A stretch of DNA of 64,000 bases, taken from contig MKUQ01000033.1 of the NCBI GenBank assembly GCA_001898645.1, forward strand, positions 62,850 through 126,849, written 5' to 3'. Every line of letters starts with the position of its first letter. Position 1 is the first letter of the stretch. The translations under genes were made by a program, and so were the position numbers. Below the pieces are notes generated by a model. It was not told the DNA's origin and searched no databases. It saw only the letters and a list, made by a program, of their open reading frames with translations. Source of the DNA: Burkholderiales bacterium 70-64 (GTDB taxonomy: Bacteria > Pseudomonadota > Gammaproteobacteria > Burkholderiales > Burkholderiaceae_E). Below, one piece after another: positions 3,530-29,341 of the stretch.

Positions 3530-4150
3530 GTCTGCGCGCGTGGTGGTTTGCGCGTGCGTCGGTTTACGCGAACAAAGGCGCGGGCCGCCCGGGGCCGGCG
3601 CACCGGGTGCTTGCCCCCCGCTGCGCGGGGGGTTCCCTGCGATGCTCCAGCACCGGCTGGCGCGGCGCAACTCGCTGCGCTCGCTACGCGAGCTGCGCTC
3701 AGACAGGGCGCCGCGAGAATGAAGCACGAAGCGCGCTGCGCGCGCCGCCGGTGCTGCTGCGCTTCTCGGCTGCGCACAGGCGCGCCGGCCCCGGGCGGCC
3801 CGCGCCTTTGCCGATACCGTGGCAGCCTGCGCAGGCAACGGCCCCGTCTTCTCTCCGAACACCACCCAGGGTGCCCGAGCGGTAGTCGGCGGGCAGCCGG
3901 GCCCGGGGGGTTGCGGCGCTGTGTGCGGCGCCGAGCAGCGCAGTCTCGGGGTCGGCGCGCGCAGCGCGCTTCGTACCTCTGACTTGCGGCGCCCTGTCTG
4001 AGCGGAGCTCGCGTAGCGAGCGCAGCGAGTTGCGCCGCACGACCCCGAGGCGAGCAGCGGAGGGAAGTCGGTGCGCAGCACCGACCGCCGTGCCCAGCGC
4101 CGCAACCCCCCGGGCCCGGCTGCCCGCCGACTGCCGCGATCGCGCCAAGC
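3530..4150 (+). repeat. Nested inverted-repeat element, copy 1
   Basis: This fills most of the gene-free stretch 3475-4192. It has two blocks. Block A (3573-3846) is bounded by a perfect 29-bp inverted repeat (3573-3601 with 3782-3810). Block B (3855-4150) contains a perfect 38-bp inverted repeat (3884-3921 with 4095-4132). In addition a 53-bp core inside A (3662-3714) is inverted inside B (3986-4038) with one mismatch. Block A matches 28634-28907 at 273 of 274 positions and block B matches 29045-29341 closely, in the same orientation. Apparent open frames here run through the palindromes on both strands and do not resemble proteins, so I treat it as non-coding. No transposase or clear target duplication is visible. 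Family unknown to me. Confidence 0.9.
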
Positions 4151-4192
4151 TCGGCATGAAGCACGCCGAGGTCGTAGAGAGGCGGGAGCGCT

Positions 4193-5197
4193 TCAGCCGG
4201 GAACCAGCACCGCCGCGCCCTGGATCGTGCCGGCGCGCAGGTCGCGCAGCGCCTCGTTGGCCGCCTCGAGCGGGTAGGTGATGGTGTCGACGCGCAGCGG
4301 ATGGCCGCGTACCCAGGCCAGGAACTCGTCGCCGTCGGCGCGGGTGAGGTTGGCCACCGACAGCAGCTGCCGCTCGTGCCACAGCAGGCCGTAGGGGAAC
4401 GACGGGATGTCGCTCATGTGGATGCCGCCGCACACCACGCGCCCTCCCTTGCGCACGGCCCGCAGGGCCGCCGGCACCAGCGCCCCCACCGGCGCGAAGA
4501 TGATGGCCGCCTCGAGCGGCTCCGGCGGCGACTGGTCGGAGCCCCCGGCCCAAGCCGCGCCCAGCGCGAGGGCGTGCGCCTGCGCGGGTGCGTCGCCGGG
4601 CCGGGTGAAGGCGAACACTTTGCGCCCCTGGCTGCGTGCCACCTGCGCGATGAGGTGGGCGGCGGCGCCGAACCCGTACAGGCCGAGCGTCGCGCCGGCG
4701 CCGGCGAGCTTGAGCGAGCGCCAGGCGATCAGGCCGGCGCACATCAGCGGCGCGGCCTGCACGTCGGTCAGGGCGATGCCCTCGAGCGAGAAGCAGTAGT
4801 GCGCATCGGCCACCACGCAGGTGGCGAAGCCGCCGTCACGGTGGTAGCCGGTGAATTGCGGCGTGTCGCACAGGTTCTCGCGGCCCTCGGCGCACCAGGC
4901 GCAGTGCCCGCAGGTGTGCCCCAGCCATGGAACGCCGACGCGCTGCCCGATGGCCAGCGCGTGCGCCGCCGACCCCGGCTCGCAGGGCCCCAGTGCTTCG
5001 ACGCGCCCGACGATCTCGTGCCCGGGCACCAGCGGCGAGCGCACCGGCGGCAGCTCGCCGTCGACGATGTGCAGGTCGGTGCGGCACACTGCGCAGGCGA
5101 GCACGCGCAGGCGCACCTCGCCCGGGCCGGGCTCGGGATCGGGTCGCTCGCGTGGCACCAGCGCGGCGCCGACCGCTTCCAGCGTCATCGCGCGCAT
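4193..5197 (-). CDS. Zinc-dependent alcohol dehydrogenase
   Basis: Medium-chain dehydrogenase/reductase, 334 aa, predicted cytosolic and NAD(P)-dependent, interconverting an alcohol and an aldehyde. Catalytic zinc ligands are visible as Cys38 and His60-Glu61 ('VPGHE'), and the structural zinc site as Cys96, 99, 102 and 110 (CGHCAWC...C). The Rossmann glycines appear as 'GLYGFGAAAH'. The gene starts 10 bp after the stop of the sigma-54 activator on the same strand, so the two are probably co-transcribed. Next to the divergent amine dehydrogenase operon, a role in handling aldehydes made from amines is plausible, but the substrate is inferred from context only. Confidence 0.85.
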   Translation of the reverse strand: MRAMTLEAVGAALVPRERPDPEPGPGEVRLRVLACAVCRTDLHIVDGELPPVRSPLVPGHEIVGRVEALGPCEPGSAAHALAIGQRVGVPWLGHTCGHCAWCAEGRENLCDTPQFTGYHRDGGFATCVVADAHYCFSLEGIALTDVQAAPLMCAGLIAWRSLKLAGAGATLGLYGFGAAAHLIAQVARSQGRKVFAFTRPGDAPAQAHALALGAAWAGGSDQSPPEPLEAAIIFAPVGALVPAALRAVRKGGRVVCGGIHMSDIPSFPYGLLWHERQLLSVANLTRADGDEFLAWVRGHPLRVDTITYPLEAANEALRDLRAGTIQGAAVLVPG

Positions 5198-5207
5198 GCC
5201 GCTGCCG

Positions 5208-7199
5208 TCAGCCTCGCTGCTGCTTGAGCTTGCGATACAGGGTTGCGCGGCCGATGCCCAGCGAGGCGGCAGCCGCGGAGATGTTGCCGCCGTGGCGCTC
5301 GAGCGCCCGCTGCACCGCCTGCACCTCCAGCGCGGCCAGCGTGCCGGCGGCGCAGGCGGCCGGCGCGTCCGTCCGCACGGGCTGCTGCTCGATCATCTCG
5401 CGCAGGAAGTCGTCGGTGAGATGCTGCATGCCGATGCAGCGCTCCTCGCCCAGCAGCGCCAGCGCGGTGGCGATCACGCTGGCGAGCTGGCGCAGGTTGC
5501 CCGGCCAGGGATGGCCCAGCAGGGCCTCGAGCGCCTCGTCCGACAGCGTGATCGGCTCGTCGCCGGCGCTCTGGCCGCGGATCATGCCGTCGATGATGGC
5601 GCGCAGGTTGGCGCGGTCGCGCAGCGGCGGCAGCGCCACGCGCAGGCCGTTGAGCCGGTAATAGAGGTCCTGGCGGAACAGGCCGGCGCTGACCCGCTCC
5701 CTCAGGTTCATGTGGGTCGCGCAGATGACCGCGATGTCGATCGGCACCGCCTTGTCGCCGCCCAGCGGGACCACGCAGCGCTCCTGCAGGGCGCGCAGCA
5801 GGCGCGCCTGCAGCGCGAGCGGCATGTCGCCGATCTCGTCGAGCAGCAGCGTGCCCTTGTCGGCCTGCTGCAGCTGGCCGATCGCGCCGCCCCGGCGCGC
5901 GCCGGTGAACGCGCCGTCGCGATAGCCGAACAGCTCGGCCTCGATCAGGGTCTCGGGGATCGAGGCGCAGTTGATCGCCACGAACGGACCGCCGGCGCGC
6001 GCCGACTCGCGGTGCAGCGCGCGCGCCAGGACCTCCTTGCCGGTGCCGGTCTCGCCTTCGAGCAGGACCGGGATGCCGGCCTCGAACGCACGGCGCGCCT
6101 TCTCGAGCAGCTCGTGCATCGCGCTGTCGCCCAGCACGATGTCGGACAGGCGCAGCTCGCCGCGCCGCGCGCCGTGGGCCGCAGCGCCGGCAGGCTGGGC
6201 GGCGGCGGGCGGGCGCGGCGGCACGAAGGGCGCCGCGGGCGGCGATCCGCTTGCGCGGGCCTTGCCGCGCGGGGTCTCGGCGGGTGCGCGCACGCCGGCG
6301 TACACGCGTATGCCGCTGTGCAGGTGCATGAGGATCGGGCCGCTGCCGGGGGCCGGAACGGCTTCGGGCAGGCGGGCCGCATCGATGTCGAAGAAGGCGC
6401 TGATGTGATCGCGGCCGATGGCTCGGCGGTCGATCTCCAGCACCTGCAGCGCGGCGCGGTTGGCGGCCTGCAGCGTACCGGTGCGGTCGAACACCGCCAG
6501 CGCCTCCCACAGCGTGCCGAGGAACTCCGGGCGGCTGTGGAAGCGCACGATCGTGTGCGTGTCCATCTGCGCGAAGAACAGCCGGCTCTCGATGACCCGG
6601 GCCGACATCCCCACCAGCGCCCGCAGGTGCCCCTGGCGCACGTGCTCGCCGCCGGAGAGATCGAGCACGCCGGCCAGGTTGCCGAACGGATCGAACAGCG
6701 GTGCTGCGGCGCAGAAGTAGGCGCCCATCTGCTCCCGGTAGTGCTCGTCGCCCAGCACTGCCACCGGCCGCTGCGCGACCACCGCCGTGCCGATCGCATT
6801 GGTGCCCATGTGGGTCTCGACCCAGCAGGCGCCCGGGCGCCCGCCGGTGCGCATGAGCGGGCCGTCGAGCGAGATCGAGCTGAGCACCGTGGCCTCGGCA
6901 TCGGTGAGGATGACCACGCTGCGCGTGTTGGCGATCTGCTGGTAGAGATTCTCGAGCTCGGGCTGCGCCACCTCGAGCAGCAGGCGGTTGCGCTCGCGCA
7001 GCGAGCGCAGCTCGGCCGCCGTGACCATGGGCAGGGCGGTGCGCGCCGAGGCGTCCATCCCGAGGCCCGCGCAACGCTCCCATGAACGGGCAACCTCGTC
7101 GGCCACCAGACCGTTGGGGACCACGTTGCCGTTGAAGAAGTGGGTGCGGGCGAGCCGCGTTCGTTCGTCTGCCGCAACCGGCAGCGATGCAAGCGTCAC
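5208..7199 (-). CDS. Sigma-54-dependent activator, AcoR-like
   Basis: A 663-aa enhancer-binding protein from a GTG start ('VTLASLPVAADERT'); an in-frame start further upstream is possible but would cut into the divergent promoter region. Domain order: GAF-type sensor (about 75-205), PAS-like segment (about 220-310), low-complexity linker (about 320-345), AAA+ domain with Walker A GETGTGKE at 382-389, the sigma-54 contact loop GAFTGA at 429-434 and Walker B 'TLLLDEIGD', then a Fis-type helix-turn-helix at the C-terminus ('HGGNISAAAASLGIGRATLYRKLK'-like, shown in part). Such activators sense a small molecule through GAF/PAS and open sigma-54 promoters. The perfect sigma-54 promoter at 7379-7394, pointing away into the amine dehydrogenase operon, is the obvious target. 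Confidence 0.9.
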   Translation of the reverse strand: MTLASLPVAADERTRLARTHFFNGNVVPNGLVADEVARSWERCAGLGMDASARTALPMVTAAELRSLRERNRLLLEVAQPELENLYQQIANTRSVVILTDAEATVLSSISLDGPLMRTGGRPGACWVETHMGTNAIGTAVVAQRPVAVLGDEHYREQMGAYFCAAAPLFDPFGNLAGVLDLSGGEHVRQGHLRALVGMSARVIESRLFFAQMDTHTIVRFHSRPEFLGTLWEALAVFDRTGTLQAANRAALQVLEIDRRAIGRDHISAFFDIDAARLPEAVPAPGSGPILMHLHSGIRVYAGVRAPAETPRGKARASGSPPAAPFVPPRPPAAAQPAGAAAHGARRGELRLSDIVLGDSAMHELLEKARRAFEAGIPVLLEGETGTGKEVLARALHRESARAGGPFVAINCASIPETLIEAELFGYRDGAFTGARRGGAIGQLQQADKGTLLLDEIGDMPLALQARLLRALQERCVVPLGGDKAVPIDIAVICATHMNLRERVSAGLFRQDLYYRLNGLRVALPPLRDRANLRAIIDGMIRGQSAGDEPITLSDEALEALLGHPWPGNLRQLASVIATALALLGEERCIGMQHLTDDFLREMIEQQPVRTDAPAACAAGTLAALEVQAVQRALERHGGNISAAAASLGIGRATLYRKLKQQRG

Positions 7200-7378
7200 T
7201 GAATGGCCTCCTCGAGCGCCCCTTGATCTCTGGTGGATCGAATTCGTACAGGGCATTTCTCATTCTGATACACGGAACCGGTCATGGCTACCCGCCGATT
7301 CCCGCTTCGACCCGAAGCATCCCTCATGACTTGATTTCGAGCAAGAACTCGGCACCTGCGCGCCGTGCATAGGGACGC

Positions 7379-7394
7379 TGGCACGCGTGTTGCA
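7379..7394 (+). promoter_or_regulatory. Sigma-54 (-24/-12) promoter of the amine dehydrogenase operon
   Basis: TGGCACGCGTGTTGCA matches the consensus TGGCACG-N4-TTGCW at every fixed base. The predicted transcription start is near 7405, leaving a leader of about 26 nt with a purine-rich ribosome site (GCGAGGAG) before the ATG at 7431. An interrupted palindrome GCTTCG-ACC-CGAAGC at 7304-7318, roughly 90-100 bp upstream, lies where an activator site would be expected, but that assignment is weak. Confidence 0.88.
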
Positions 7395-7430
7395 TAGCTA
7401 GTCGCCGTACCGACGTGGAGGTGCGAGGAG

Positions 7431-8576
7431 ATGGGATCCGTCAGGAATGCCGCGGTGGCCTTGCTGCTGTTCGGCGCAGCGTGCGCCGGTCGGGCCGAGG
7501 TGCCCGCGGACACGCTGAAGGTGGAGACGCTGGCGACTCCCCATGGGGCGCACTGGGTCTACCTGATGGACGTGTCGTTCCCGCACCTGTCCGAGGGCAA
7601 GATCGTCGTGGTCGACGCCGATCGCCGCGAAGTGCTCGGCATGATGACCACCGGCTTCCTGGCCGGCCTGGCGCCTGCGCCCGATCGCAAGGAGCTGTAC
7701 GTCACCGAGACCTTCTACTCGCGCGGCGTGCGCGGCGAGCGCACCGACGTGGTGACCATCTACGATCCCGCGGAGCTCAAGCCGGTGGGCGAGGTGGTGA
7801 TCCCGCCCAAGCGCTTCATCGCGCTGACCATGCCCTACGGCACCGTGGTCACCCGCGACGGACGCTTCCTGCTGCAGTACAACTTCACGCCCGCCACCTC
7901 GGTGAGCGTGGTCGACCTGAAGAGCCGCCGCTTCGTGGGCGAGATCGACGCGCCCGGCTGCACGCTGATCTATCCGGGCGCGGGCAATCGCAGCTATTCG
8001 ATGATCTGCAGCGACGGCAGGCTGCTCACCCACACCCTCGACGATGAGGGCCGGCTCGCTTCCCAGCGCATGAGCGAGCAACCCTTCTTCGATCCCGACA
8101 AGGACTCGCTCAACGTCGCCCCGGCGCGCCTGGGCGACACGCTGTACTTCGTGTCCTTCCTCGGCCAGGTGCATCCGCTCGACGTCTCGGGCCAGGAGCC
8201 GGCGGCCGCGCCGACCTGGTCGCTGCTCAAGGCCGCCGATCGCCGGCAGGCGTGGCGTCCCGGGGGCTGGCAATACGTGGCCGCCAACGAGAAGCTCGGC
8301 CGCCTGTACGTGATCATGCATCCGAACGGCCGCAACGGCACCCACAAGGATCCCGGCGGCGAGATCTGGGTCTACGACCTGAAGACCAAGGCGCGCATCC
8401 AGCGCATCCGCACCAAGACGCCGGTGGTGAGCGTGCTCACCAGCCGCGACGATGCGCCGCTGCTGTATGCGCTCGGCGCCGAGGGCAGCCTGCACGTCTA
8501 CGACGCGCGCCGCGGCCGCTACCGCGGCACCGTGGCCGGCGCAGCCGAGACGGCCATGGTGATGGTGAATCCGTGA
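7431..8576 (+). CDS. aauB: TTQ amine dehydrogenase large (beta-propeller) subunit
   Basis: Periplasmic large subunit (381 aa with signal peptide ending near 'GRAE') of a tryptophan tryptophylquinone amine dehydrogenase, which oxidises a primary amine to the aldehyde plus ammonia and passes electrons to a copper protein or cytochrome c. The chain is a repeat of propeller-blade strands ('KIVVVDADRREVLGMMTTGF', 'VSVVDLKSRRFVGEI', 'IWVYDLKTKARIQRI'), as in MauB/AauB. It opens an operon in the order B-E-D-A. Lack of mauF and the presence of a phenylacetaldehyde-dehydrogenase-like gene downstream favour an aromatic amine dehydrogenase over methylamine dehydrogenase; this is inference. Confidence 0.85.
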   Translation: MGSVRNAAVALLLFGAACAGRAEVPADTLKVETLATPHGAHWVYLMDVSFPHLSEGKIVVVDADRREVLGMMTTGFLAGLAPAPDRKELYVTETFYSRGVRGERTDVVTIYDPAELKPVGEVVIPPKRFIALTMPYGTVVTRDGRFLLQYNFTPATSVSVVDLKSRRFVGEIDAPGCTLIYPGAGNRSYSMICSDGRLLTHTLDDEGRLASQRMSEQPFFDPDKDSLNVAPARLGDTLYFVSFLGQVHPLDVSGQEPAAAPTWSLLKAADRRQAWRPGGWQYVAANEKLGRLYVIMHPNGRNGTHKDPGGEIWVYDLKTKARIQRIRTKTPVVSVLTSRDDAPLLYALGAEGSLHVYDARRGRYRGTVAGAAETAMVMVNP

Positions 8577-9127
8577 TCGATCCGGCATTCACCGGCATGG
8601 CCTGCGCGACGCTCGCGCTGATCTTCCTCGCCAGCGCCTGGGGCAAGGCGAGGCATCCGCGCTGGTTCGCCGGCGCGCTGCGCGAGTACCGCCTCCTGCC
8701 CGAGGTCGCGCTGTGGCCGGTGGCGCTGGCGGTGCCCGCGCTCGAGGCTGCTGCTGCGCTGGGCCTGCTGGCGGCGCCTCTGCGTCCGCTCGCGGCCGCG
8801 CTCGCGCTGGCGCTGCTGGTGGTGTTCTCCGCTGCGCTCGGGCTGAATCTCGCGCGCGGCCGGCGCGACATCGATTGCGGCTGCTGGGGGCCGGCGGCGC
8901 GGCCCGGCGCGCTTTCGGGCTGGCTGCTCGCGCGCAACGCGGCGCTGGCCGCGCTGGCCGCGGTGCTGCTCATGCCGCCGGCGGGCCGCGACCTGGTCTG
9001 GGTCGACTTCCTGACGATCGGCCTGGGCACCGTGGCGCTGCTGTTCGTCTTCGGCGCGATCGATCGCCTGATCGCGCAGGCCCCGGCGCTGGCCGATCTG
9101 CGACACCGACACGAGGAAATCCGATGA
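8573..9127 (+). CDS. aauE: MauE-like membrane protein for amine dehydrogenase maturation
   Basis: A 184-aa polytopic inner-membrane protein of the MauE family, starting at a GTG that overlaps the previous stop (GTGA). Four or so hydrophobic segments are seen, with the family motif 'DIDCGCWG' containing two cysteines. MauE and MauD are known to be needed for export, folding or disulfide formation of the cysteine-rich small subunit. Its position between the large subunit and the MauD-like protein is the conserved order. The 3' end overlaps the next gene by 4 bp. Confidence 0.87.
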   Translation: MIDPAFTGMACATLALIFLASAWGKARHPRWFAGALREYRLLPEVALWPVALAVPALEAAAALGLLAAPLRPLAAALALALLVVFSAALGLNLARGRRDIDCGCWGPAARPGALSGWLLARNAALAALAAVLLMPPAGRDLVWVDFLTIGLGTVALLFVFGAIDRLIAQAPALADLRHRHEEIR

Positions 9128-9726
9128 CCGAGGCATTGCTCGTTTCCAACCTGGTGCTGTGGCTGCTGGTGATCCTGCTCGGCATCGTGGTGCTGGCGCT
9201 GACGCGCCAGGTCGGCGTGCTGTATGAACGCATCGCGCCGGCCGGGGCGCTCATGATCGACAAGGGTCCGCGCGTGGGCGAGCACGCGCCGGTGTTCGAG
9301 CTGCGCGACCTGGCTGGGCGCGCGCTCAAGCTGGGCGGCATCCATGCGGCTGGCCGCGCCACGGTGCTGCTGTTCGTTTCGCCGAGCTGCCCGATGTGCA
9401 AGAAGCTGCTGCCGATCGCGCGCTCGATGGCCGCCGGCGAGGCGGCGGTCGACCTGGTGCTGGCGAGCGACGGCGACGAGCAGGAGCAGCGCCGCTTCGT
9501 GGCGCGCGAGCGCCTCGAGGCGATGCCGCTGGTGCTCTCGCGCGAGCTCGGCATGGCCTACCAGATCGGCAAGCTGCCGTACGCCGTGCTCGTCGATGCC
9601 GAGGGGGTGATACGCGCCAAGGGGCTGGTCAACACGCGCGAGCACTTCGAGAGCCTGTTCGAGGCGCACGCGGCCGGCGTCAGCTCGCTGCAGGAATTCC
9701 TCGGCAGGCGGCTGGTCGAAGGCTGA
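9124..9726 (+). CDS. aauD: MauD-like thioredoxin-fold maturation protein
   Basis: A 200-aa membrane-anchored thioredoxin-fold protein: one N-terminal transmembrane helix (about 5-28) and a periplasmic domain with the redox motif Cys89-Pro-Met-Cys92. It probably forms or isomerises disulfides of the small subunit, which has 14 cysteines. It starts with an ATG overlapping the MauE-like stop and is followed 15 bp later by the small-subunit gene, which has its own ribosome site (GGGAGGG). Confidence 0.88.
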   Translation: MTEALLVSNLVLWLLVILLGIVVLALTRQVGVLYERIAPAGALMIDKGPRVGEHAPVFELRDLAGRALKLGGIHAAGRATVLLFVSPSCPMCKKLLPIARSMAAGEAAVDLVLASDGDEQEQRRFVARERLEAMPLVLSRELGMAYQIGKLPYAVLVDAEGVIRAKGLVNTREHFESLFEAHAAGVSSLQEFLGRRLVEG

Positions 9727-9741
9727 GCGGGAGGGTGGGCG

Positions 9742-10248
9742 ATGAGATGGTTCGACGAATTCTCCGAGCGCGGCTCGCGCCGCCTGGCGCAGCGCACGTC
9801 ACGGCGCAGCGCGCTGGCACGGCTGGGCAAGGTGCTGTTCGGCGCTGCGCTGGTGCCGCTGCTGCCGGTCGACCGGATGGTCGGGCGTGCCCACGCCGCC
9901 GTCACCGACGACCCGCGCTCGTGCGACTACTGGCGCCACTGCGGCGTCGACGGCTGGTTGTGCTCGTGCTGCGGCGGCTCGGTGTCCTCGTGCCCGCCGG
10001 GCACCGAGGTCGGCACGATCACCTGGGTGGGCACCTGCCGCAACCCGGCCGACAACACCGACTACATCGTGTCGTACAACGACTGCTGCGGCAAGGGCAG
10101 CTGCGGGCGCTGCCAGTGCCTGCGCAGCGAGGCCGACACGCCCGTGTATCGCCCGCAGTCGAGCAACGATATCAACTGGTGCCTGGGCTCGACCAGCGCG
10201 CACTACCACTGCACCACCTCGGTGGTGCTTGGCGTGGCGCGCAAGTGA
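9742..10248 (+). CDS. aauA: TTQ amine dehydrogenase small (catalytic) subunit
   Basis: A 168-aa precursor with a long leader containing twin arginines ('TSRRSALARLGK') and a mature part that begins near 'AVTDDPRSCDYWRHC'. The core matches MauA/AauA closely: 'LCSCCGGSVSSCPPGTE', 'DCCGKGSCGRCQC' and 'PVYRPQSSNDINWC'. By comparison with MauA the two tryptophans that are cross-linked to make the cofactor are Trp95 ('TITWVGTC') and Trp146 ('NDINWC'). Fourteen cysteines explain the need for MauE/MauD. The protein works in the periplasm with the large subunit as an alpha2-beta2 enzyme. Confidence 0.92.
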   Translation: MRWFDEFSERGSRRLAQRTSRRSALARLGKVLFGAALVPLLPVDRMVGRAHAAVTDDPRSCDYWRHCGVDGWLCSCCGGSVSSCPPGTEVGTITWVGTCRNPADNTDYIVSYNDCCGKGSCGRCQCLRSEADTPVYRPQSSNDINWCLGSTSAHYHCTTSVVLGVARK

Positions 10249-10250
10249 CG

Positions 10251-10805
10251 ATGCGCGCGGCAGTACGCGGTGCACCGGCGGCGCTGCTGGCGCTGGCGGT
10301 GTGCGCGGCGGGCGCGGCCTTCGCTGCGGACACGGCGGGCGCGGCCGCGGCCGGCGCCGCCGGCTCCACGGCCGCTCAGGCCGGCGGCGAGGGTGCGCGC
10401 GTCTATGCCCAGCACTGCGCCGTGTGCCACCTGCCGAATGCCGGCGGCTCGCCCGGCTTCGTGCCGCCGCTCACCGGCACGCTCGGGCACTTCGCATCCT
10501 CGGAGGACGGCCGCGCGCTGCTGGCGGCGATCGTCTCCTGGGGCATGACCGGGGCGATCCGGGTCGGCGGGCGCAGCTACATGGGCGCGATGTCGATCGT
10601 GCGTCCGCTGAGCGACGAGGAGGCCGCCGAGGTCCTCAACTACGTGCTGCGCGACCACAATCAGGCCAGCCTGCCGGCGGACTTCGCGCCGTTCACGGCT
10701 GCCGAGATCCAGCGCCATCGCGCCCGCAAGGCCAGCCCGGGCGAGGTGCACGCGGCGCGCCAGGCGCTGGCGCGCCGCCTCGAGGCGGAGGGCAAGGCGC
10801 GATGA
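10251..10805 (+). CDS. Periplasmic c-type cytochrome
   Basis: A 184-aa protein with a signal peptide (cleavage near 'AFAADT'), an alanine-rich spacer and one haem c motif, CAVCH at 56-60, followed by class I features ('LPNAGGSPGFVPPL') and possible axial Met in 'YMGAMS'. A charged C-terminal helix closes the protein. It starts 2 bp after the small subunit stop, so it is probably the electron acceptor of the amine dehydrogenase or the next carrier; no azurin or amicyanin gene is present in this operon. Confidence 0.85.
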   Translation: MRAAVRGAPAALLALAVCAAGAAFAADTAGAAAAGAAGSTAAQAGGEGARVYAQHCAVCHLPNAGGSPGFVPPLTGTLGHFASSEDGRALLAAIVSWGMTGAIRVGGRSYMGAMSIVRPLSDEEAAEVLNYVLRDHNQASLPADFAPFTAAEIQRHRARKASPGEVHAARQALARRLEAEGKAR

Positions 10806-11212
10806 GGCGCCAGCCGGTTCGCACCGTGCCGGCGCGCCTGGGCGCACTCGCACTGGCCTGTGCCGGCGCGCTGGTGCCGGCGCAGGCGCGCGCCGCCGGG
10901 GAGGCGCCGGCGCCGGCCGCGAGCGCCGCCGCCTATCGCGAGGTCGATGCGCGCGTGCTCTACGCGCTGAACTGCCTGGGCTGCCATCCCGCGCCCGCGG
11001 GCGGCACCGACAACAGCCGCTACAGCCGCGTCGTCGAGGGCGAGTTCGCCCAGACCCCGGCCGGACGGGTGTTCTTCATGCGCATGCCGCCGAGCGGACA
11101 GCCGCTGGCGCCGGCGACGAGGGCGCAGTTGCGCGACGAGCTCGAGCGGTGGAAGCGCGCCTGCCCGGTGCTGCTGCGCGCCTCGACCTGGAACCTCTCC
11201 AATCTCCAGTAG
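10802..11212 (+). CDS. Small c-type cytochrome-like protein
   Basis: A 136-aa exported protein (signal peptide to about 'ARAAGE') with one haem motif CLGCH at 58-62. A candidate second ligand is in 'FFMRMPPSGQPL'. It overlaps the preceding cytochrome gene by 4 bp (ATGA), which suggests that the two form a complex. I do not recognise a named family beyond a cytochrome c fold, and its role in electron transfer from the amine dehydrogenase is inferred from position. Confidence 0.75.
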   Translation: MRRQPVRTVPARLGALALACAGALVPAQARAAGEAPAPAASAAAYREVDARVLYALNCLGCHPAPAGGTDNSRYSRVVEGEFAQTPAGRVFFMRMPPSGQPLAPATRAQLRDELERWKRACPVLLRASTWNLSNLQ

Positions 11213-11215
11213 ACG

Positions 11216-12721: not shown

Positions 12722-12749
12722 ACAGCGCAATCGAAGAGGAGGAGAAACC

Positions 12750-14117: not shown

Positions 14118-14132
14118 AGCGCGTGAGCGGGC

Positions 14133-14155
14133 CCGCCGCGGAGGAACCGCGGCGG
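14133..14155 (+). other. Intercistronic hairpin between DUF1329 and DUF1302 genes
   Basis: Perfect 9-bp stem CCGCCGCGG / CCGCGGCGG around the loop AGGAA, located 15 bp after the DUF1329 stop and 39 bp before the DUF1302 start. There is no U-run, so it is more likely to stabilise or process the mRNA than to terminate it. Confidence 0.5.
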
Positions 14156-14194
14156 CGGCCGGCGAATACGAACATGAACCAGGAGGAGAGATCG

Positions 14195-19936: not shown

Positions 19937-19964
19937 CATCTGTACCGCGCCGTAGAGGTCCTGC

Positions 19965-21437: not shown

Positions 21438-22714
21438 ATGCGCACGATCGCGGAGCGCGCCGCTGCATCCTGGTGATCGGCACCTGCGACACCAAGTCGG
21501 AGGAGCTGCGCTACATCCGCGAGTGTCTCGAGGCGGCGGGCGCCGCGGTGCTGCTGATGGACGTCGGCGTGCTCGGCACGCCCTCGCTCGCCCCCGACCT
21601 GAGCAACGTCGAGGTCGCGGCGGCGGCCCGCGCGACGCTCGACGAGGTGGCCGCGCAAGGCGACGAGAACCTCGCCATGAGCCGCATGGCCGAGGGCGCT
21701 GCGCGGCTGGCGCGCCGGCTGCACGACGACGGCCGCATCCACGGGGTGCTCATGCTCGGCGGCACCATGGGCACCGATCTCGCCCTCGACGTGGCCGCCG
21801 CGCTGCCGCTGGGGGTGCCGAAGTTCGTGGTCTCCACGGTGGCCTTCTCGCACCTGATCCCGCCCGAGCGCGTCTCGCCCGACCTGACGATGATGCTGTG
21901 GGCCGGCGGCCTGTACGGCCTGAACAGCGCCTGTCGCGCCATCCTCGGCCAGGCGGCCGGCGCCGTGCTCGGCGCCGCGCGCATGGCGGACGAGGTGCGT
22001 CCGGCGCGGCCGCTGGTCGGCATCAGCTCGCTCGGCAAGAGCTGCCTGAACTACATGGTGCGCCTGAAGCCGGCGCTCGAGGCGCGCGGCTACGAGGTGG
22101 CGGTCTTCCACACCACCGGCATGGGCGGGCGCGCCTTCGAGGCCATGGCCGCGCAGCGCCGCTTCGCCGCGGTGATGGATTTCAGCCTGCAGGAGGTCAG
22201 CAACCAGGTGCACGGCTCGGTGGTCAGCTCGGGCGCCGGGCGCCTGACCGCCGCGGGCCGCGCCGGCATTCCCCAGCTGGTGGCCCCGGGCGCGGCCGAC
22301 ATGATCGACCTGCCGGCCTGGCAACCGGTGCCCGAGGCCTACCGCGACCGGCCGCTGCACGTGCACAACCGGCTCATCGCCTCGGTGACCGCCACGCCCG
22401 AGGAGCGCCGCCACACGGCGCGTCGCATCGCCGAATGCCTGGCCGAGGCGGGCGCGCCGGTGACGCTGCTGCTGCCGCGCCAGGGCGTGCAGGCCTGGGA
22501 CCGCCCCGGCGAAGCCCTGCACGATGCGCAGGGGCTGGCCGCGCTGCTCGACGAGCTGCGCACGCGCGTCGCGCCGCCGGCGCAGGTGGTCGAGGTCGAT
22601 GCGCACATCAACGATCCGCTGTTCGCCGCCACCGCCCTGGAGCGCTTCGACGCCTGGGTGCGCGAGGGCATCGTGCCGCGCGGCGTGGCCCTCGACCAAG
22701 AACTGGAAGCCTGA
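21434..22714 (+). CDS. UPF0261 / Tm-1-like ATP-binding protein
   Basis: A 426-aa cytosolic protein of the UPF0261 family, whose plant homologue is the N-terminal domain of the Tm-1 resistance protein. The N-terminal nucleotide-binding half shows 'ILVIGTCDTKSEELRYIRE' and 'GVLMLGGTMGTDLA'; the second half shows 'LVGISSLGKSCLNYM' and 'FHTTGMGGRAFE'. Bacterial members are commonly found in catabolic operons but their reaction is not established to my knowledge. Translationally coupled to the aldehyde dehydrogenase upstream and 3 bp from the HAD gene downstream. Confidence 0.85.
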   Translation: MNAHDRGARRCILVIGTCDTKSEELRYIRECLEAAGAAVLLMDVGVLGTPSLAPDLSNVEVAAAARATLDEVAAQGDENLAMSRMAEGAARLARRLHDDGRIHGVLMLGGTMGTDLALDVAAALPLGVPKFVVSTVAFSHLIPPERVSPDLTMMLWAGGLYGLNSACRAILGQAAGAVLGAARMADEVRPARPLVGISSLGKSCLNYMVRLKPALEARGYEVAVFHTTGMGGRAFEAMAAQRRFAAVMDFSLQEVSNQVHGSVVSSGAGRLTAAGRAGIPQLVAPGAADMIDLPAWQPVPEAYRDRPLHVHNRLIASVTATPEERRHTARRIAECLAEAGAPVTLLLPRQGVQAWDRPGEALHDAQGLAALLDELRTRVAPPAQVVEVDAHINDPLFAATALERFDAWVREGIVPRGVALDQELEA

Positions 22715-22717
22715 CGA

Positions 22718-23386
22718 ATGTACTCCACCCCCGCCGGTCTGCTGCTCGACTTCGGCACCGTGATCACCTGGTCGCTGTTCGAGAAGCATCGCGAGACCGA
22801 AGCGACGCTCGGCCTGCCCGCCGGCAGCCTGCAGTGGCTGGGCCCGCTCGATCCCGACACCGATCCCCTGTGGCAGGCGATGCAGCGCGACGAGATCAGC
22901 GAGCGCGACTACTGGGCGCGGCGCGCCGACGAGCTCGGGCGCGCCTGCGGCGAACCGGGCTGGGACATGCTGACGGTGATGCACCGGCTGCGCCACACCG
23001 ACCCGAACTCGTCGATCCGCCCGCAGATGCTCGCGCTGGTGCGCAGGGCCGTGCGCCACGGCCTGCGCGTGGGCATCCTGTCCAACGAGCTGGAGCTGTT
23101 CTACGGCAAGAGCTTCCTCGACCGCCTCGACATCGTCAAGGAGGTGGCGGTGATCATCGACGGCACCCACAGCAAGGTGCTCAAGCCCGATCCGGCGGTG
23201 TATGCGATCGCCCTCGAGGCGATGAAGCTGCCGGCCGCGCAGGTGCTGTTCGTCGACGACCAGTTGCGCAACATCGTCGGCGCCCATGGCTGCGGGCTGC
23301 AGACGCAGCTCTTCGACCTGCGCGATCCCGACGGCTGCTGCCGCGCGGTGAGCGCCCGGCTGCGCCTGCCCGAGGCGGCGCAGTGA
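22718..23386 (+). CDS. HAD-superfamily hydrolase
   Basis: A 222-aa cytosolic HAD hydrolase. Motif I appears as 'LLLDFGTVIT' (Asp nucleophile present, but Phe-Gly in place of the common x-Asp-Gly, so the acid/base Asp of phosphatases is missing). Motif II is the Ser/Asn in 'GILSNE', motif III the Lys in 'KVLKPDP', and motif IV 'VLFVDDQLRN'. The missing second Asp makes a dehalogenase-like or altered hydrolase activity as likely as a phosphatase. Substrate unknown; it is part of the UPF0261 group. Confidence 0.8.
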   Translation: MYSTPAGLLLDFGTVITWSLFEKHRETEATLGLPAGSLQWLGPLDPDTDPLWQAMQRDEISERDYWARRADELGRACGEPGWDMLTVMHRLRHTDPNSSIRPQMLALVRRAVRHGLRVGILSNELELFYGKSFLDRLDIVKEVAVIIDGTHSKVLKPDPAVYAIALEAMKLPAAQVLFVDDQLRNIVGAHGCGLQTQLFDLRDPDGCCRAVSARLRLPEAAQ

Positions 23387-23426
23387 AGTCGAATCCACCG
23401 GCTGTCTGAACGGAGGAGGATTGCCC

Positions 23427-24818
23427 ATGTCCGCCGTCATCATCGACAAGACGCCGGCTGCACCGGCGCCACGCAAGGTGCTCGGCTTCTCCGCGCTGTT
23501 CGCTGCCTCGATCGGCGTCATCGTGGCCCAGCTCGGCATGGTGTCGCTGATGCAGGGCGTGGGCATCGGCGGCTGGGGCTTCTTCGCGGCGCTGGCGATC
23601 GCCTTCGCGCTGGCGCTCGCCAACGCCATGGCCTATGCCGAGATGGCGCTGATGATGCCGAGCGCGGGCTCGCTCTCCAGCTATGCCGAGGCGGCGGTCG
23701 GCAACTTCCCGGCCATCCTGCTGGTGTTCGCGGGCTACGTCACGCCGGCGATCTTCGGCCTGCCGGTCGAGCTGATCCTGGTCGACGGCGTGCTGCAGCA
23801 GATCGTGCCCGGCGTGCTGCCGCCGTTCGCCTGGGCGGTGGCGCTGCTCGCCGTGCTGGCCGTGCTCAACATCCTCGGCACCGACATCTTCGCGCGCGTG
23901 CAGACCACGCTCAGCTTCGTGATGCTGGTGTTCCTCGCGCTCACCGGGCTGATGGCGCTGGGCGGGCAGGGTGCCGCGCCGCTGGCCGGCGGGCACGCCG
24001 CCGGCTTCGCCGCGCTCGGTCACGACACGGTCGTGCTCGGCCTGGTGGCGCTCGCCTTCTGGGTCTTCGTCGGCACGGAGTTCGTCACGCCGCTGGTCGT
24101 CGAGGCGCGCAATCCGGCGCGCGACCTGCCGCGCGCGATGATCCTCGGGCTCGCCGTCGTCGCCGTCGTGCAGGTGCTGTTCGCGCTCGGTGCGGCATTC
24201 TTCGTATCGCGCGAGGAGCTCGCCGGCTCGGCCACGCCGCACCTCGACTACGTCGTCGCGGTGTTCGGGCCGAGCGCCAAGATCTGGTTCGGCGTGTTCG
24301 CCGTCACCGCCACGGCGAGCCTGCTCAACACCGTGCTCGCCGCCGTGCCGCGCATGCTGAAGGGCATGGCCGACAACGGACAGGTGTTCCCGCTGCTCGG
24401 CCGCACCGGCAAGCGCGGCACGCCGGTGCTCGGCATCCTGTTCGTCGCGGTGCTGCCGCTGGTCGGGCTGGTGTGGTCGCGCGGCGATGCCAACGCCATC
24501 GTGCCGCTCACCATCGCCGCGTCGGTGGCCTGGCTGCTCGCGTACATGACGGCCCAGGTTTCGCTGATCGTGCTGCGGCGCCGTCATCCCGACCTGCCGC
24601 GGCCGTTCAGGGTGCCCGGCTACCCCGTCACGCCGCTGCTCGCCATTGCCGGCATGGGCTACGTCGTCGTCAACAGCTCGCCCGCGCCCGAGATGACCGG
24701 ACAGATCGTCGCCTACACCGGCATCGTGCTCGCGCTGTTCGCCGTCGTTGGCGCGGTCTGGGTCAAGCTGGTGATGAAGAAGGGCCTGTTCGAGCCGGGC
24801 ACGCCGGCAGGGCTCTGA
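23427..24818 (+). CDS. Amino acid/polyamine (APC) permease
   Basis: Polytopic inner-membrane permease, 463 aa, of the amino acid-polyamine-organocation family, with about twelve hydrophobic segments and family-typical 'AMAYAEMALMMPSAGSLSSY' and 'EFVTPLVVEARNPARDLPRAM'. I place the start at the ATG behind GGAGGAGGA; a TTG two codons earlier also exists. Likely imports the amine or amino acid substrate processed by the neighbouring aminotransferase and dehydrogenases. Confidence 0.88.
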   Translation: MSAVIIDKTPAAPAPRKVLGFSALFAASIGVIVAQLGMVSLMQGVGIGGWGFFAALAIAFALALANAMAYAEMALMMPSAGSLSSYAEAAVGNFPAILLVFAGYVTPAIFGLPVELILVDGVLQQIVPGVLPPFAWAVALLAVLAVLNILGTDIFARVQTTLSFVMLVFLALTGLMALGGQGAAPLAGGHAAGFAALGHDTVVLGLVALAFWVFVGTEFVTPLVVEARNPARDLPRAMILGLAVVAVVQVLFALGAAFFVSREELAGSATPHLDYVVAVFGPSAKIWFGVFAVTATASLLNTVLAAVPRMLKGMADNGQVFPLLGRTGKRGTPVLGILFVAVLPLVGLVWSRGDANAIVPLTIAASVAWLLAYMTAQVSLIVLRRRHPDLPRPFRVPGYPVTPLLAIAGMGYVVVNSSPAPEMTGQIVAYTGIVLALFAVVGAVWVKLVMKKGLFEPGTPAGL

Positions 24819-24834
24819 ATACGGAGTTTCCAGC

Positions 24835-26202
24835 ATGTCCCACGACGCAAAGTTCCTGAAGGACAACAACGCGCGCTTCCTGTGGCACCCGATGGCCGCG
24901 CCCGGCGCGATGCGCGCCTCGCCGCCCGACATCATCGTGCGCGGCGACGGCGTGTGGATCGAGGACGTCGACGGCCACCGCATGGTCGACGGCGTGGGCG
25001 GCCTGTGGAGCGCCAACCTCGGATTCGGGCGCAAGGAGGTGCGCGACGCGATCGTCGCGCAGATGGACGAGCTGGCCTACTACAACGCCTTTCGCGGCAC
25101 CACCCACGCGCGCGCCATCGAGCTGTCGGCGCGCCTGGTCGGCATGATGCGCCCCGACGGCATCGAGGCGGTGTTCTTCTCCAACGGCGGCTCCGACGCG
25201 GTGGAGGGCGCGCTCAAGCTGGCGCGCCAGTACTGGAAGATCCGCGGCCAGGGCGATCGCACCAAGTTCATCTCGCTGCGCCAGGGCTATCACGGCGTGC
25301 ACTTCGGCGGCATGTCGGTCAACGGCAACACCAACTTCCGGCGCCCCTACGAGCCCCTGCTGCCGGGCTGCTTCCAGGTCGACACGCCGTGGACCTACCG
25401 CAATCCCTATACCGAGGATCCGGTCGCGCTGGGCGAGATCTGCGCGCGGCTGCTCGAGCGCGAGATCCAGTTCCAGGGGCCCGACACGGTGGCCGCGTTC
25501 ATCGCGGAGCCGGTGCAGGGCGCCGGCGGCGTCATCGTGCCGCCGCCCAACTACTGGCCGCTGGTGCGCGAGGTGTGCGATCGCCACGGCGTGCTGCTCA
25601 TCGCCGACGAGGTGGTCACCGGGTTCGGGCGCACCGGCGTGATGTTCGGCACGCGGCTGTGGGGCGTGCAGGCCGACCTCATGTGCCTGGCCAAGGGCAT
25701 CTCCTCGGGCTACGTGCCGCTGGGGGCGACGGCGATCGGGCGCCGGGTGAAGGAGGCCTTCGACGACGCCGATCCGGCCATCGGATCGGTCACGCACGGC
25801 TACACCTACAGTGCGCATCCGGTGGCGGCGGCGGCGGCGCTGGCCACGCTCGACATCCTGGAGCGCGAGGACATCGCCGGCAATGCCGCCAGGCAGGGCG
25901 CCCGCCTGATCGAGGCGCTGCAGGGGCTGGCAGCGCGCCGGCGCACCATCGGCGAGGTGCGCGGCAAGGGCCTGATGGTGTGCATCGAGATGGTGGCCGA
26001 TCGCGCGACCAAGGCGCCGTTCCCGCGCGCCGCCGACGTGCCGGCGCGCGTCGCGCGGGCCGCCTACCGCCACGGCGCGATGGTGCGCTGCTCCGGCCCG
26101 AACATCATCCTGTCGCCGGCACTGGTGATCCAGGCGCCCGAGATCGACCGCATCGTGGCGGCGCTCGATGCGGCGTTCGCCGAGGTCGAGGCGGCACTGT
26201 GA
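24835..26202 (+). CDS. Class III (omega) aminotransferase
   Basis: PLP-dependent aminotransferase of 455 aa, fold type I. The Schiff-base lysine is Lys287 in 'CLAKGISSGYVPLGA', the pyridine-contacting Asp258 is in 'LIADEVVTGFGRTG', and the phosphate-binding region is 'SNGGSDAVEGALKLAR'. Class III enzymes transfer terminal amino groups (beta-alanine, gamma-aminobutyrate, diamines, arylalkylamines) to pyruvate or 2-oxoglutarate, yielding an aldehyde. With a permease directly upstream and an aldehyde dehydrogenase in the same group, a complete uptake-transamination-oxidation route is present; substrate unknown. Confidence 0.9.
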   Translation: MSHDAKFLKDNNARFLWHPMAAPGAMRASPPDIIVRGDGVWIEDVDGHRMVDGVGGLWSANLGFGRKEVRDAIVAQMDELAYYNAFRGTTHARAIELSARLVGMMRPDGIEAVFFSNGGSDAVEGALKLARQYWKIRGQGDRTKFISLRQGYHGVHFGGMSVNGNTNFRRPYEPLLPGCFQVDTPWTYRNPYTEDPVALGEICARLLEREIQFQGPDTVAAFIAEPVQGAGGVIVPPPNYWPLVREVCDRHGVLLIADEVVTGFGRTGVMFGTRLWGVQADLMCLAKGISSGYVPLGATAIGRRVKEAFDDADPAIGSVTHGYTYSAHPVAAAAALATLDILEREDIAGNAARQGARLIEALQGLAARRRTIGEVRGKGLMVCIEMVADRATKAPFPRAADVPARVARAAYRHGAMVRCSGPNIILSPALVIQAPEIDRIVAALDAAFAEVEAAL

Positions 26203-26269
26203 GGCGGCTCCTTCCGCATCGGGCGTGGTCGCGGCACGCCGACGCGCGACGCGTGGCGCAGCAGCCGTG

Positions 26270-28576
26270 ATGAAGCGCCTCGCGACGCTGGCCCTGTGCG
26301 GGGGGATGGCGGCTGCGGCGGGCGCGGCACCGCAGACGGCGGGCGCGCCGGTGCCGCCGCCCGCGGCGCCGGGGCTCGTCGCGCTGCCGGCCCCACCCGT
26401 GGTCGACGCGCACCTGGCCGAGTTGGGCCGCCAGCTCTTCTTCGACAACCGGCTCTCGGGCGACTGGAGCCGCGCCTGCGCCAGCTGCCACCTGCCCGCA
26501 CGCGGCTGGGCCGACGGCGAGGCGCTCTCGCGCGGCTATCTCGGCACGCAGTACTACCGCAACGCGCCGGGCCTGGTGAATGCGGTGTTCCACCGTCGGC
26601 TCGGCTGGGACGGCGCGCTGAGCGAGGGCGGTCCGGGCGCCGGCGCGCTGGCCGAGGCGGCGCGCGGCATGGTCGGCACGGCGCACTTCATGAACGCCGA
26701 CGCGCGCCTCGTCGAGGAGCGCCTGCGCCAGGTGCCGGAATACGTGCGGCGCTGGCGCGCGATATCCGGCGAGGCGGCCGGCCCCGACGCGGCGGGCGCC
26801 TTCGCGGCGATCGGCGCCTTCGTCGCCACGCTGGTGTCGGCGCCCGCGCCGCTCGATCGCTACCTCGGCGGGCAGCGCGATGCGCTCGACGCGAACCAGA
26901 AGGCCGGGTTGGCCCTGTTCGTCGGCAAGGCCGGCTGCGTGCGCTGCCATGATGGAGCGCTGGCCTCGGACGGCGGCTTCCACCGGCTCGGCGTGCCCGA
27001 GCATCCCGACGTGCTGGCCAATCCGCTGCGCTCCATCACCATGCTGCGCGCCTACGCGCGCGCGGGCGTGCCCGACTACATGTCGGCGCGCACCGACCTC
27101 GGACGCTACGCCGTCACCCGGCGCGAGGAAGACCTCGGCCGCTTCGCCACGCCGAGCCTGCGCAACCTGCGCGACACCGCACCCTACATGCACAGCGGCG
27201 TCTTCGCCCGCCTGGAGGACGTGGTCGAGTTCTACGACCGCGGCGGAGGCCCCGGCAGCGAGCTGCGTCCCCTCGGGCTGGATGCACGCGAGAAGCGCCA
27301 GCTGGTCGCCTTCCTGCTGTCGATGAGCGGCGATCCGGTGCGGGTGGAGACGCCCGAGCCGCCCGACTTCGAGGTGCGCAACATCGCCGCGGCCCCGCAG
27401 CATCGGGCAGCCGCCGAGCCGCCTGCGGCAATCGGCTCCGGCGCGAAGGCAGCTGTCGCGGCAGGCTCGACGATGGATGCGGCGGCGACGGGCGCGACGG
27501 CGGCGCCTGCCGATGCCGCGCCTGCCGATGCCGCGCCGTATCCGCCGCTGGCCTCCCTGCCGCCGGTCCAGGCGCCGGCCGACAATCCCGCCACGCCGCA
27601 GAAGATCGCGCTCGGGCGCCTGCTGTACTTCGACGGGCGGCTCTCGGGCGACGGCAGCACGCCGTGCGTGAGCTGCCATTTCCCGCAGCTGGGCTGGGCC
27701 GAGGGCGGGCGCCTGTCGCGCGGCTACCCGGGAACCAAGCAGTGGCGCAACGTGCCCTCGGTGCTCAACGCCGCCTACGCCCGGCACCTCGCCTGGGACG
27801 GCTCGGCGCCCAACCTCGAGGCGCACGCGCCGGGCGCCGCGCAGAACCCGGTCGAGGGCAACGGCGATGCGGCGATGATGGAGATGCGCCTGCGCCACGT
27901 GCCCGAATACGTCGAGCGCTTCCGCGCCGTGTTCGGCACCGAGTGGCCGCGCCTGGCCGATGCCTGGCGCGCCATCGCGGCCTTCGAGCGCACGGCGGTC
28001 AGCGATGCGGCGCGCGTGCCCTTCGATCGCTACCTGGCCGGCGAGCGCTCGGCGCTGTCGGCGCAGGCGCTGCGCGGGCGCGCGCTGTTCGAGGGGCGTG
28101 CCGGGTGCATCCGCTGCCACAACGGCGCGCTCGCCACCGACCAGCAGTTCTACGCCACCGGCGTGCCCGAGGCCGACGCTTTCCGCAGCTCGGCGCTGCA
28201 CCAGATCACGCGCCGCTGGCACCAGGCGCGCAGCGGCGCGCCGGAAGCCGGCGAGGAGGCCCTGCTGCGCGATCCGGGCCGCTACTACGCCACCCGCGAT
28301 CCGCGCGACATCGGCAAGTTCCGCGTGCCGGGCCTGCGCGAGCTGAAGTACACGGCGCCCTACATGCACAACGGCGCATTCGCCACGCTGGCCGAGGTGG
28401 TCGACTTCTACGACCGCGGCGGCGGCAGCGTCCCCAACAAGACGCCGCTGCTGCAGCCGCTGGGGCTGAGCGCCGAGGACAAGCAGGCGCTGGTGGCGTT
28501 CCTGCTCGCGCTGAGCATGGACCGGCCGCTGCTCGTCGAGGCGCCCGTCCTGCCGGCCTACGCCCCGCTGAAGTAG
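26270..28576 (+). CDS. Tandem four-haem CcpA/MauG-like cytochrome c peroxidase family protein
   Basis: A 768-aa exported protein (signal peptide to about 'AGAAP') made of two di-haem peroxidase-like halves. Haem motifs are CASCH 70-74 and CVRCH 223-227 in the first half, CVSCH 466-470 and CIRCH 613-617 in the second. A Pro/Ala-rich linker (about 375-440) joins them. Each half ends with 'TAPYMH', which in bacterial cytochrome c peroxidases contains a Met haem ligand. The family includes MauG, which makes the TTQ cofactor in methylamine dehydrogenase. A single chain with two halves is unusual and may be linked to TTQ formation or to peroxide/electron handling here (inference). Confidence 0.87.
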   Translation: MKRLATLALCGGMAAAAGAAPQTAGAPVPPPAAPGLVALPAPPVVDAHLAELGRQLFFDNRLSGDWSRACASCHLPARGWADGEALSRGYLGTQYYRNAPGLVNAVFHRRLGWDGALSEGGPGAGALAEAARGMVGTAHFMNADARLVEERLRQVPEYVRRWRAISGEAAGPDAAGAFAAIGAFVATLVSAPAPLDRYLGGQRDALDANQKAGLALFVGKAGCVRCHDGALASDGGFHRLGVPEHPDVLANPLRSITMLRAYARAGVPDYMSARTDLGRYAVTRREEDLGRFATPSLRNLRDTAPYMHSGVFARLEDVVEFYDRGGGPGSELRPLGLDAREKRQLVAFLLSMSGDPVRVETPEPPDFEVRNIAAAPQHRAAAEPPAAIGSGAKAAVAAGSTMDAAATGATAAPADAAPADAAPYPPLASLPPVQAPADNPATPQKIALGRLLYFDGRLSGDGSTPCVSCHFPQLGWAEGGRLSRGYPGTKQWRNVPSVLNAAYARHLAWDGSAPNLEAHAPGAAQNPVEGNGDAAMMEMRLRHVPEYVERFRAVFGTEWPRLADAWRAIAAFERTAVSDAARVPFDRYLAGERSALSAQALRGRALFEGRAGCIRCHNGALATDQQFYATGVPEADAFRSSALHQITRRWHQARSGAPEAGEEALLRDPGRYYATRDPRDIGKFRVPGLRELKYTAPYMHNGAFATLAEVVDFYDRGGGSVPNKTPLLQPLGLSAEDKQALVAFLLALSMDRPLLVEAPVLPAYAPLK

Positions 28577-28590
28577 CGCGCTTCGGCGCG
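28577..28590 (+). terminator. Possible small hairpin after the four-haem gene
   Basis: A 5-bp stem CGCGC/GCGCG closes a TTCG tetraloop directly after the stop codon. The C(UUCG)G loop is very stable in RNA, but there is no U-run, so termination is only a possibility. Confidence 0.3.
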
Positions 28591-29341
28591 GTCTGCGCGC
28601 GCGTCGGTTGACGCGTGCGGCGGTCTATGCGAGCAAAGGCGCGGGCCGCCCGGGGCCGGCGCACCGGGTGCTTGCCCCCCGCTGCGCGGGGGGTTCCCTG
28701 CGATGCTCCAGCACCGGCTGGCGCGGCGCAACTCGCTGCGCTCGCTACGCGAGCTGCGCTCAGACAGGGCGCCGCGAGAATGAAGCACGAAGCGCGCTGC
28801 GCGCGCCGCCGGTGCTGCTGCGCTTCTCGGCTGCGCACAGGCGCGCCGGCCCCGGGCGGCCCGCGCCTTTGCCGATACCGTGGCGGCCTGCGCAGGCAAC
28901 GGCCCCGGTGCCTGGGTCGTGCCGATGCGCGCGAACGCCGTGCTTCACGCGAGCGTCGACTCCGTCGTTGCCGCGAACACCGCACTCGTCTGCGCTTCTA
29001 GCGGCGCACTCATCCGCGCTGCGAGTACCGATTCCTCCTTCGGCCCGAACACCACCCATGGTGCCCGAGCGGCAGTCGGCGGGCGGCCGGGCCCAGGGGG
29101 TTGCGGCGCTGTGTGCGGCGCCGAGCAGCGCAGTCTCGGGGTCGGCGCGCGCAGCGCGCTTCGTGCTTCTGACTTGCGGCGCCCTGTCTGAGCGAAGCGA
29201 ACGTAGTGAGCGCAGCGAGTTGCGCCGCACGACCCCGAGGCGAGCAGCGGAGGGGAGTCGGTGCGCAGCACCGACCGCCGTGCCCAGCGGCCGCGGCCCC
29301 CTGGGCCCGGCCGCCCGCCGACTGCCGCGACCGCGCCAAGC
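28590..29341 (+). repeat. Nested inverted-repeat element, copy 2
   Basis: Second, same-orientation copy of the element at 3530-4150, filling the gene-free stretch 28577-29396. Block A (28634-28907) matches copy 1 at 273 of 274 positions, including an unbroken run of 251 identical bases. Block B (29045-29341) matches with scattered substitutions. Between the blocks copy 2 carries 137 bp where copy 1 has 8 bp, so the copies differ by a 129-bp insertion or deletion. The inner and outer inverted repeats are kept. No protein-like open frame is convincing in either copy. Confidence 0.9.

Follow-up and report, generated by a model that had tools for sequence, protein, structure and literature searches.

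Probable REPIN-like inverted repeats flank an acquired-looking amine-catabolic cluster in a Burkholderiales bacterium

Introduction

MITEs are short, non-coding elements with terminal inverted repeats, and long palindromes are generally held to be poorly tolerated by bacteria. REPINs are described as inverted REP doublets with a predicted hairpin fold that spread within genomes (PMC3116915), and REPs are named among the targets of IS110 members (PMC1525189). The Beta-proteobacterial repeat element (BRE) is given as approximately 90 bp in length, present in 1–29 copies and mostly intergenic, with hosts in Bordetella, Polaromonas, Acidovorax, Delftia, and Azoarcus (Hot et al., 2011; PMC3110155); the flanking genes in Table 3 of that description are never divergent. 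A candidate structured RNA, the Burkholderiales-1 motif, is listed under the name of the order that concerns us here (PMC2864571).

We analyzed a window, the whole stretch of 64,000 nucleotides taken from Burkholderiales bacterium 70-64 (genome G000; a 4.72-Mb assembly, 98% complete), in which two long repeats enclose a set of amine and aldehyde genes. A sequence-only reading of this DNA had proposed that the repeats bracket a movable or excisable module. As argued below, we regard it as probable that the repeats are outsize, REPIN-like, dispersed and non-autonomous elements homogenised by gene conversion, and that the amine cluster came separately and forms no module with them.

Results

Two copies of an inverted pair in the window

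Copy 1 (3530..4150, minus strand) is an inverted pair read B then A, located between livF (plus strand) and a Zn alcohol dehydrogenase gene (ADH; 4193..5197, minus strand). Copy 2 (28590..29341, minus strand), likewise an inverted pair, is located between a MauG-like gene (plus strand) and a hemerythrin-domain gene (HHE; 29397..29855, minus strand). The units were scored with R1, a covariance model trained on 56 B units, which came from ten genomes of the genus and two further genomes of the family; the B units of both window copies were in the training set. The A unit of copy 1 with its outer arms (3574..3809, minus strand) matched R1 at 3611–3782 on the plus strand with 114.8 bits, inverted relative to the B unit (3887..4129 with outer arms, minus strand), which matched at 3918–4088 on the minus strand with 197.3 bits. 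The corresponding units of copy 2 are A at 28635..28870 (minus strand; R1 match 28672–28843 on the plus strand, 114.8 bits) and B at 29077..29320 (minus strand; R1 match 29108–29278 on the minus strand, 190 bits).

The two copies comprise three pairs of same-orientation repeats, namely 3523–3822 and 28584–28883 (96% identity), 3848–4117 and 29038–29307 (91%), and 4099–4150 and 29290–29341 (90%). The earlier count of 273 matching bases in 274 proved exact, with one mismatch between 3573–3846 and 28634–28907 at an offset of 25,061. The nesting of inverted repeats was found as described as well: the A core and B core align over 124 nt with 84% identity, the outer arms of A lie at 3574–3601 and 3782–3809, and those of B around 3887–3904 and 4112–4129. 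Both copies are also non-coding as had been supposed, as a codon-usage gene caller called no gene in 3475–4192 or 28577–29396. Over its full length, the B-A strand of copy 2 folds into a single hairpin, with a z of −12.6 against 20 shuffles.

Unit architecture and covariation

A full copy of approximately 600–750 bp contains two homologous, multi-branched palindromic units of approximately 171 nt in inverted arrangement, with B in sense and A in antisense orientation; a long outer stem closes each unit. Although R1 was trained on B units, it also detected A units, absent from the training set; these lay on the opposite strand and scored up to 119 bits. Thus, A and B belong to one family and make up an inverted pair.

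In the B unit, standard pairs took in 98.2% of the cells, and both sides had changed in 17 of 47 pairs, neither value being reached in any of 500 shuffles; one of the five covariation measures, further pair types, did not go beyond the shuffles (50/500). In the A unit, 98.5% of the cells were paired, double changes were seen in 19 of 49 pairs, and all five measures were beyond 500 shuffles. When the pairing was slid as a control, the paired cells dropped to 26–47% (B) and 25–54% (A). These figures should be read with the relatedness of the sequences in mind, which inflates a shuffle test; moreover, the alignments tested are the ones that had yielded both structures.

The outer stems vary between copies and still pair within each copy. 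The arms had a mean duplex energy of −154 kcal/mol with their own partner versus −86 with the arms of other copies, and the own partner was the best one in 40 of the 51 B units with usable arms (52 of the 56 units were given to this test). Perfect outer stems can also come from template-switch correction inside a palindrome, with no selection needed. The outer flanks of some G000 copies (e.g., L062 and L066) carry simple repeats that vary among copies, with units of approximately 16 nt beyond A, and runs of CTTCGG or GCGCTTG were seen beyond B in some copies.

Placement relative to genes

The B unit faced the 3' end of the neighbouring gene in 58 of the 66 scored groups (binomial P about 2e-10, a value that takes orthologous sites as independent and counts each of two IS-split copies of G065 as two groups). 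The 66 groups are what remained of 79 after leaving out 10 in which the B side had no called gene, two of mixed orientation, and one inside a gene; the last was the only one of the 79 groups called inside a gene, so placement is almost wholly extragenic. The genes were called with our own codon-usage script rather than a standard annotator. Among the eight exceptions, there were two in which the called neighbour was an inserted IS110 transposase. The loci collected later from G072, G070, and G065 obeyed the rule in 17 of 17 scored groups; this set had 21 groups, of which three of mixed orientation and L352, with no called gene on the B side, were unscored, and the score filter dropped none. 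A preference for convergent gaps only was considered and rejected, as tandem gaps were commoner and the rule concerns the pointing of B towards the 3' end of its neighbour. Altogether, the copies lie mostly behind genes, with B nearest the stop codon.

Family size and distribution

BLAST detected 13 element groups in the 4.72-Mb assembly of G000, six of them at contig ends, some of which may belong to one copy; copies of the element thus break assemblies. Eleven of the 13 groups were found elsewhere than at this locus, beside housekeeping-type genes. For 8–13 positions placed at random, two neighbours come as close as 25,061 bp with a probability of 0.26–0.57. Therefore, in a 4.7-Mb genome with 13 groups, two copies within 25 kb are to be expected by chance and are unremarkable.

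R1 matches (E ≤ 1e-5) were present in 17 of the 18 genus genomes, with 1–40 matches each. An even draw of 200 genomes from the order, screened with stricter filters and at most 14 candidates scored per genome, gave matches in 21 genomes; three were of this genus, and the matches in 18 of the 197 genomes outside the genus were weak. BLAST at E ≤ 1e-3 retrieved matches from 34 of 74 family genomes, many by one weak match. Another family of the order contributed two genomes with inverted pairs, G257 and G161. The covariance-model matches suggest an order-wide family, with weaker matches and different flanks outside the family. In other families, the R1 matches at a series of loci (L306–L312 of G258, and L293–L305) were shorter or weaker, often with a recurrent hairpin of the CTTTCTTT...AAAGAAAG type on the flanks, and in several cases in inverted pairs.

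History of the copies

All seven B copies of G000 formed one clade (99/97; 100/91 with 19 more rows) and had outer-stem sequence in common. We compared individual sites with the relatives fetched for each, and the counts below cover these only, further placed relatives being outside them. The gene names ampD, ccmH, yccA, hisD, and arnB are Pfam-based, and arnC, nrdA, NMO, and rlmD are what we take the respective neighbours to be from their sequences. The arnB/arnC gap was element-free in all of the four relatives, with 9–89 bp (9–12 bp in three), and no target-site duplication was seen by eye at the junction, where the relatives compared are strongly diverged. The yccA/rlmD gap was element-free in four of five relatives (103–141 bp), and no element was seen by eye in the ampD/nrdA gap of five out of five relatives (239–487 bp). 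The yccA/rlmD gap of G065 (L325) has 457 bp with a different long palindrome where G000 carries a B-A element. At the ccmH/NMO site, four of four relatives have a gene of approximately 1.2 kb instead, an MFS transporter in the three checked. At this site, the G000 copy (G000:C56:51423-51893, L064) has its A unit but only a remnant of B, which looks collapsed between the outer arms.

The A cores of the two window copies are identical (184/184), while the B cores share 95.3% and differ in their nearest relatives, C50 and C21 for one and C19 for the other. Identical A cores together with B cores nearest to other copies point to recombination between copies and not to duplication of a block; we therefore rejected the idea that a 25-kb unit, or an element as a whole, had been duplicated. 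The earlier view had offered recent duplication, gene conversion or selection as sources of such long identity, and recent copying or gene conversion is borne out by the identical A cores and mosaic B cores.

G072 has B units behind the homologues of the hemerythrin gene and ampD (L343 and L349), as in G000, for which recurrence and retention are both possible. Several element sites are common to other relatives as well. The copies cluster by genome and not by site, which fits new insertion and homogenisation alike. As some sites recur among relatives, the distribution may in part be old and the copies may have been homogenised later.

The amine cluster and the layered locus

The segment 5208..28576 is an insert relative to G061 and G069. 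It comprises genes for a sigma-54 regulator, the large and small subunits of a TTQ amine dehydrogenase, a MauD-like protein, aldehyde dehydrogenases, transporters, a class-III aminotransferase, and a MauG-like protein; the TTQ cluster is of the methylamine/aromatic-amine-dehydrogenase type. Homologues of the TTQ heavy chain were found in 8 of 17 genus relatives with 35–44% identity, and no heavy-chain match at E ≤ 1e-120 was detected in the 249 other order genomes sampled. A search of genome contigs yielded no named relative of the amine dehydrogenase as a possible donor. The sequence-only reading had suggested a movable block, and on one point the comparison agrees with it: the amine cluster looks acquired.

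G069 and G061 share a gene order in which livF faces ADH, followed by HHE, bcrD, and bcrA onwards in the direction of ADH, with neither amine genes nor elements. Their livF-ADH gaps are element-free (72 bp in G069, 78 bp in G061). Among the 10 relatives searched, ADH homologues (E ≤ 1e-60) occurred only in these two, at the same place. Since the two relatives keep livF-ADH-HHE-bcr free of amine genes, the amine cluster would have entered between ADH and HHE. The left edge of the insert is the 10-bp, element-free junction of ADH and the regulator gene (5197/5208), and copy 1 stands one gene further out. Thus, ADH lies within the bracket and yet is a member of the older gene order. The gene that livF faces is a homologue of ORF 36278–37768, a glycogen synthase gene, in six further relatives, which shows that the ADH-HHE-bcr piece varies as well. 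From 2776 to 37762, the window is layered: six relatives have livF facing glycogen synthase, two have ADH-HHE-bcr set beside livF, and here the amine cluster is nested within that piece.

Candidates for mobilisation and an IS110-family target

No match to PF01797 (Y1/RAYT type) was found in G000, whose 98%-complete assembly could miss a gene. In the 18 genus genomes, there were one clear match, one borderline at the cut-off, and one below it. RAYT mobilisation was rejected given the result in G000. Five genes between neighbouring elements were tested as candidate transposases and rejected: three encode metabolic enzymes and one a metallo-beta-lactamase-fold protein, and the fifth matched no family.

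In G065, an IS110-family IS (PF02371 and PF01548) resides within B at two loci (L224, C75, about 3600–5050; L225, C130, about 5555–6960), at the same point of the two B units and directly after a conserved GCTGCT. The IS copies are near-identical and the surrounding sequence is different, so that either two insertions took place or one was spread by recombination. In taking an IS110-family insertion in B, as is known of REPs, the unit resembles REP DNA in its behaviour.

Discussion

A probable route of spread

A REPIN-like DNA element, mobile or formerly mobile, is the likeliest reading of the repeats, and an effect at the RNA level is its serious rival. The copies would be non-autonomous mobile DNA that multiplied within lineages, the intermediate probably being a folded single strand or a cruciform, and gene conversion between copies would keep them alike and yield the match of 273 in 274 bases. 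The placement may reflect a target at transcribed 3' ends, or survival there because a folded transcript is tolerated or useful.

Alternative explanations

The repeats could be the ends of an excisable 25-kb module, with homologous recombination between them inserting or deleting the amine block. Their common orientation, their near identity across 274 bp, the lack of the cluster in G061 and G069, and its acquired appearance all suit this idea, which we nevertheless consider very improbable. The insert has no element at its left edge, the bracket takes in an ADH gene that the relatives without the block keep beside livF, and the livF-ADH gap of these relatives has no element; therefore, they are not excision products. 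The B copies of G000 form, moreover, a lineage-specific clade at unrelated loci. What had been called a self-contained amine and aldehyde set between the repeats stands as to its gene content, but the bracket does not coincide with the block, as ADH belongs to the older flank. In G069 and G061, which have no amine block, ADH and HHE stand between livF and the bcr genes. Recombination deleting the block is possible in principle, but it would remove ADH as well and so would not restore the state of the relatives. The sequence-only reading had set against itself an element found everywhere with no link to gene gain or loss, or an arrangement constant among relatives. The element is indeed widespread and shows, in general, no association with amine genes; on the other hand, the arrangements of the relatives differ, and at the ccmH/NMO site element and gene content do differ together. 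Judging from gene order, the amine cluster is a separate acquisition between ADH and HHE, the element copies flank it by coincidence, and no excision module is indicated.

The remaining alternatives concern the element itself. It might be a structured RNA, transcribed in the 3'-UTR as a stabiliser, processing or termination signal, whose copies spread as useful or tolerated sequence. We regard this as rather unlikely, although the placement behind 3' ends with B nearest the stop codon and the strong covariation of both units speak for it, as do the A helices on the gene-sense strand, in which G-U (32 cells) exceeds A-C (8). The same count in B shows no G-U excess (6 G-U versus 12 A-C once the constant pair 158/163 and a doubtful two-pair helix, 34–35/41–43, are set aside); with everything counted, there were 70 G-U versus 14 A-C, and the constant pair 158/163 accounted for 56 of the 70. 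We thus discarded the strand test by G-U versus A-C, as A and B contradict each other. Also against an RNA, an intrinsic terminator with a T run is absent from both copies; no promoter or terminator was found inside either, and the single terminator hit (28444–28457) lies in the MauG-like gene. The window had no Rfam match at gathering score, and around copy 2, the one region searched at a lax setting, no match rose above threshold, all being weaker. One copy, in addition, sits between arnB and arnC, which are 9–12 bp apart in three relatives. Alternatively, an ancient element, not recently mobile, could be fixed behind certain genes, homogenised per genome by gene conversion and frequently lost. 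The sites common to relatives, the ampD and hemerythrin sites in both G000 and G072, the clustering by genome rather than site, and the A/B mosaicism are in line with this history. We hold it to be improbable: the 9–12 bp of the arnB/arnC gaps and the 72–78 bp of the livF-ADH gaps leave no room for a remnant, and the seven B copies of G000 constitute one clade with outer-stem sequence in common.

Implications

The main interest is the element family, with its long palindromes, its orientation rule, and its role as a target of the IS110 family. Tentatively, we suggest that the copies may represent an order-wide element class of inverted, multi-branched pairs with units of approximately 171 nt, installed one-way behind 3' ends without a RAYT, and with an outer stem that is rewritten yet complementary. 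If so, transcribed 3' ends would guide mobilisation along an undescribed route, or a mobile element would be the carrier of a 3'-UTR function. The family would make both large REP-like movement without a RAYT and an action on the 3' ends of messages testable. At similar loci, an acquired cluster flanked by near-identical direct repeats should be compared with empty sites before the term module is applied.

Comparison with described repeat families

No description of the element was found in the passages retrieved from the open text of PubMed Central, which concern BRE, REPINs, REPs, and candidate RNAs, and sequence strings retrieved no paper. The Burkholderiales-1 motif resembles the element in its link to the order and in its status as a candidate structured RNA; its table line gives no Rfam accession (PMC2864571). 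MITEs and the element have in common that they are non-coding and mobile-looking with inverted arms, whereas the element has two homologous inner units, no parent transposon was found for it, and no target-site duplication was seen by eye, in comparison with diverged relatives. The BRE, as described, shares a similar host range and a lack of divergent flanks, which fits placement at 3' ends, but forms tandem arrays with VNTR behaviour in contrast to the inverted pairs here (PMC3110155).

REPINs and BIMEs, the REP doublets, come closest. They and the element are extragenic, dispersed, inverted doublets of homologous palindromic units with a spacer, and both take IS110-family insertions into the unit, as reported for REPs (PMC1525189). 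On the other hand, units of approximately 171 nt with long outer stems contrast with the 20–40 bp stated for REPs (PMC3733652), and the 1–40 matches per genus genome with the more than 100 stated for REP-type sequences (PMC2817692). RAYTs accompany REPINs, whereas G000 lacks a PF01797 match, and the element differs from REPINs and BIMEs in being oriented relative to the neighbouring gene. We therefore regard the element as a variant on the REP-doublet plan.
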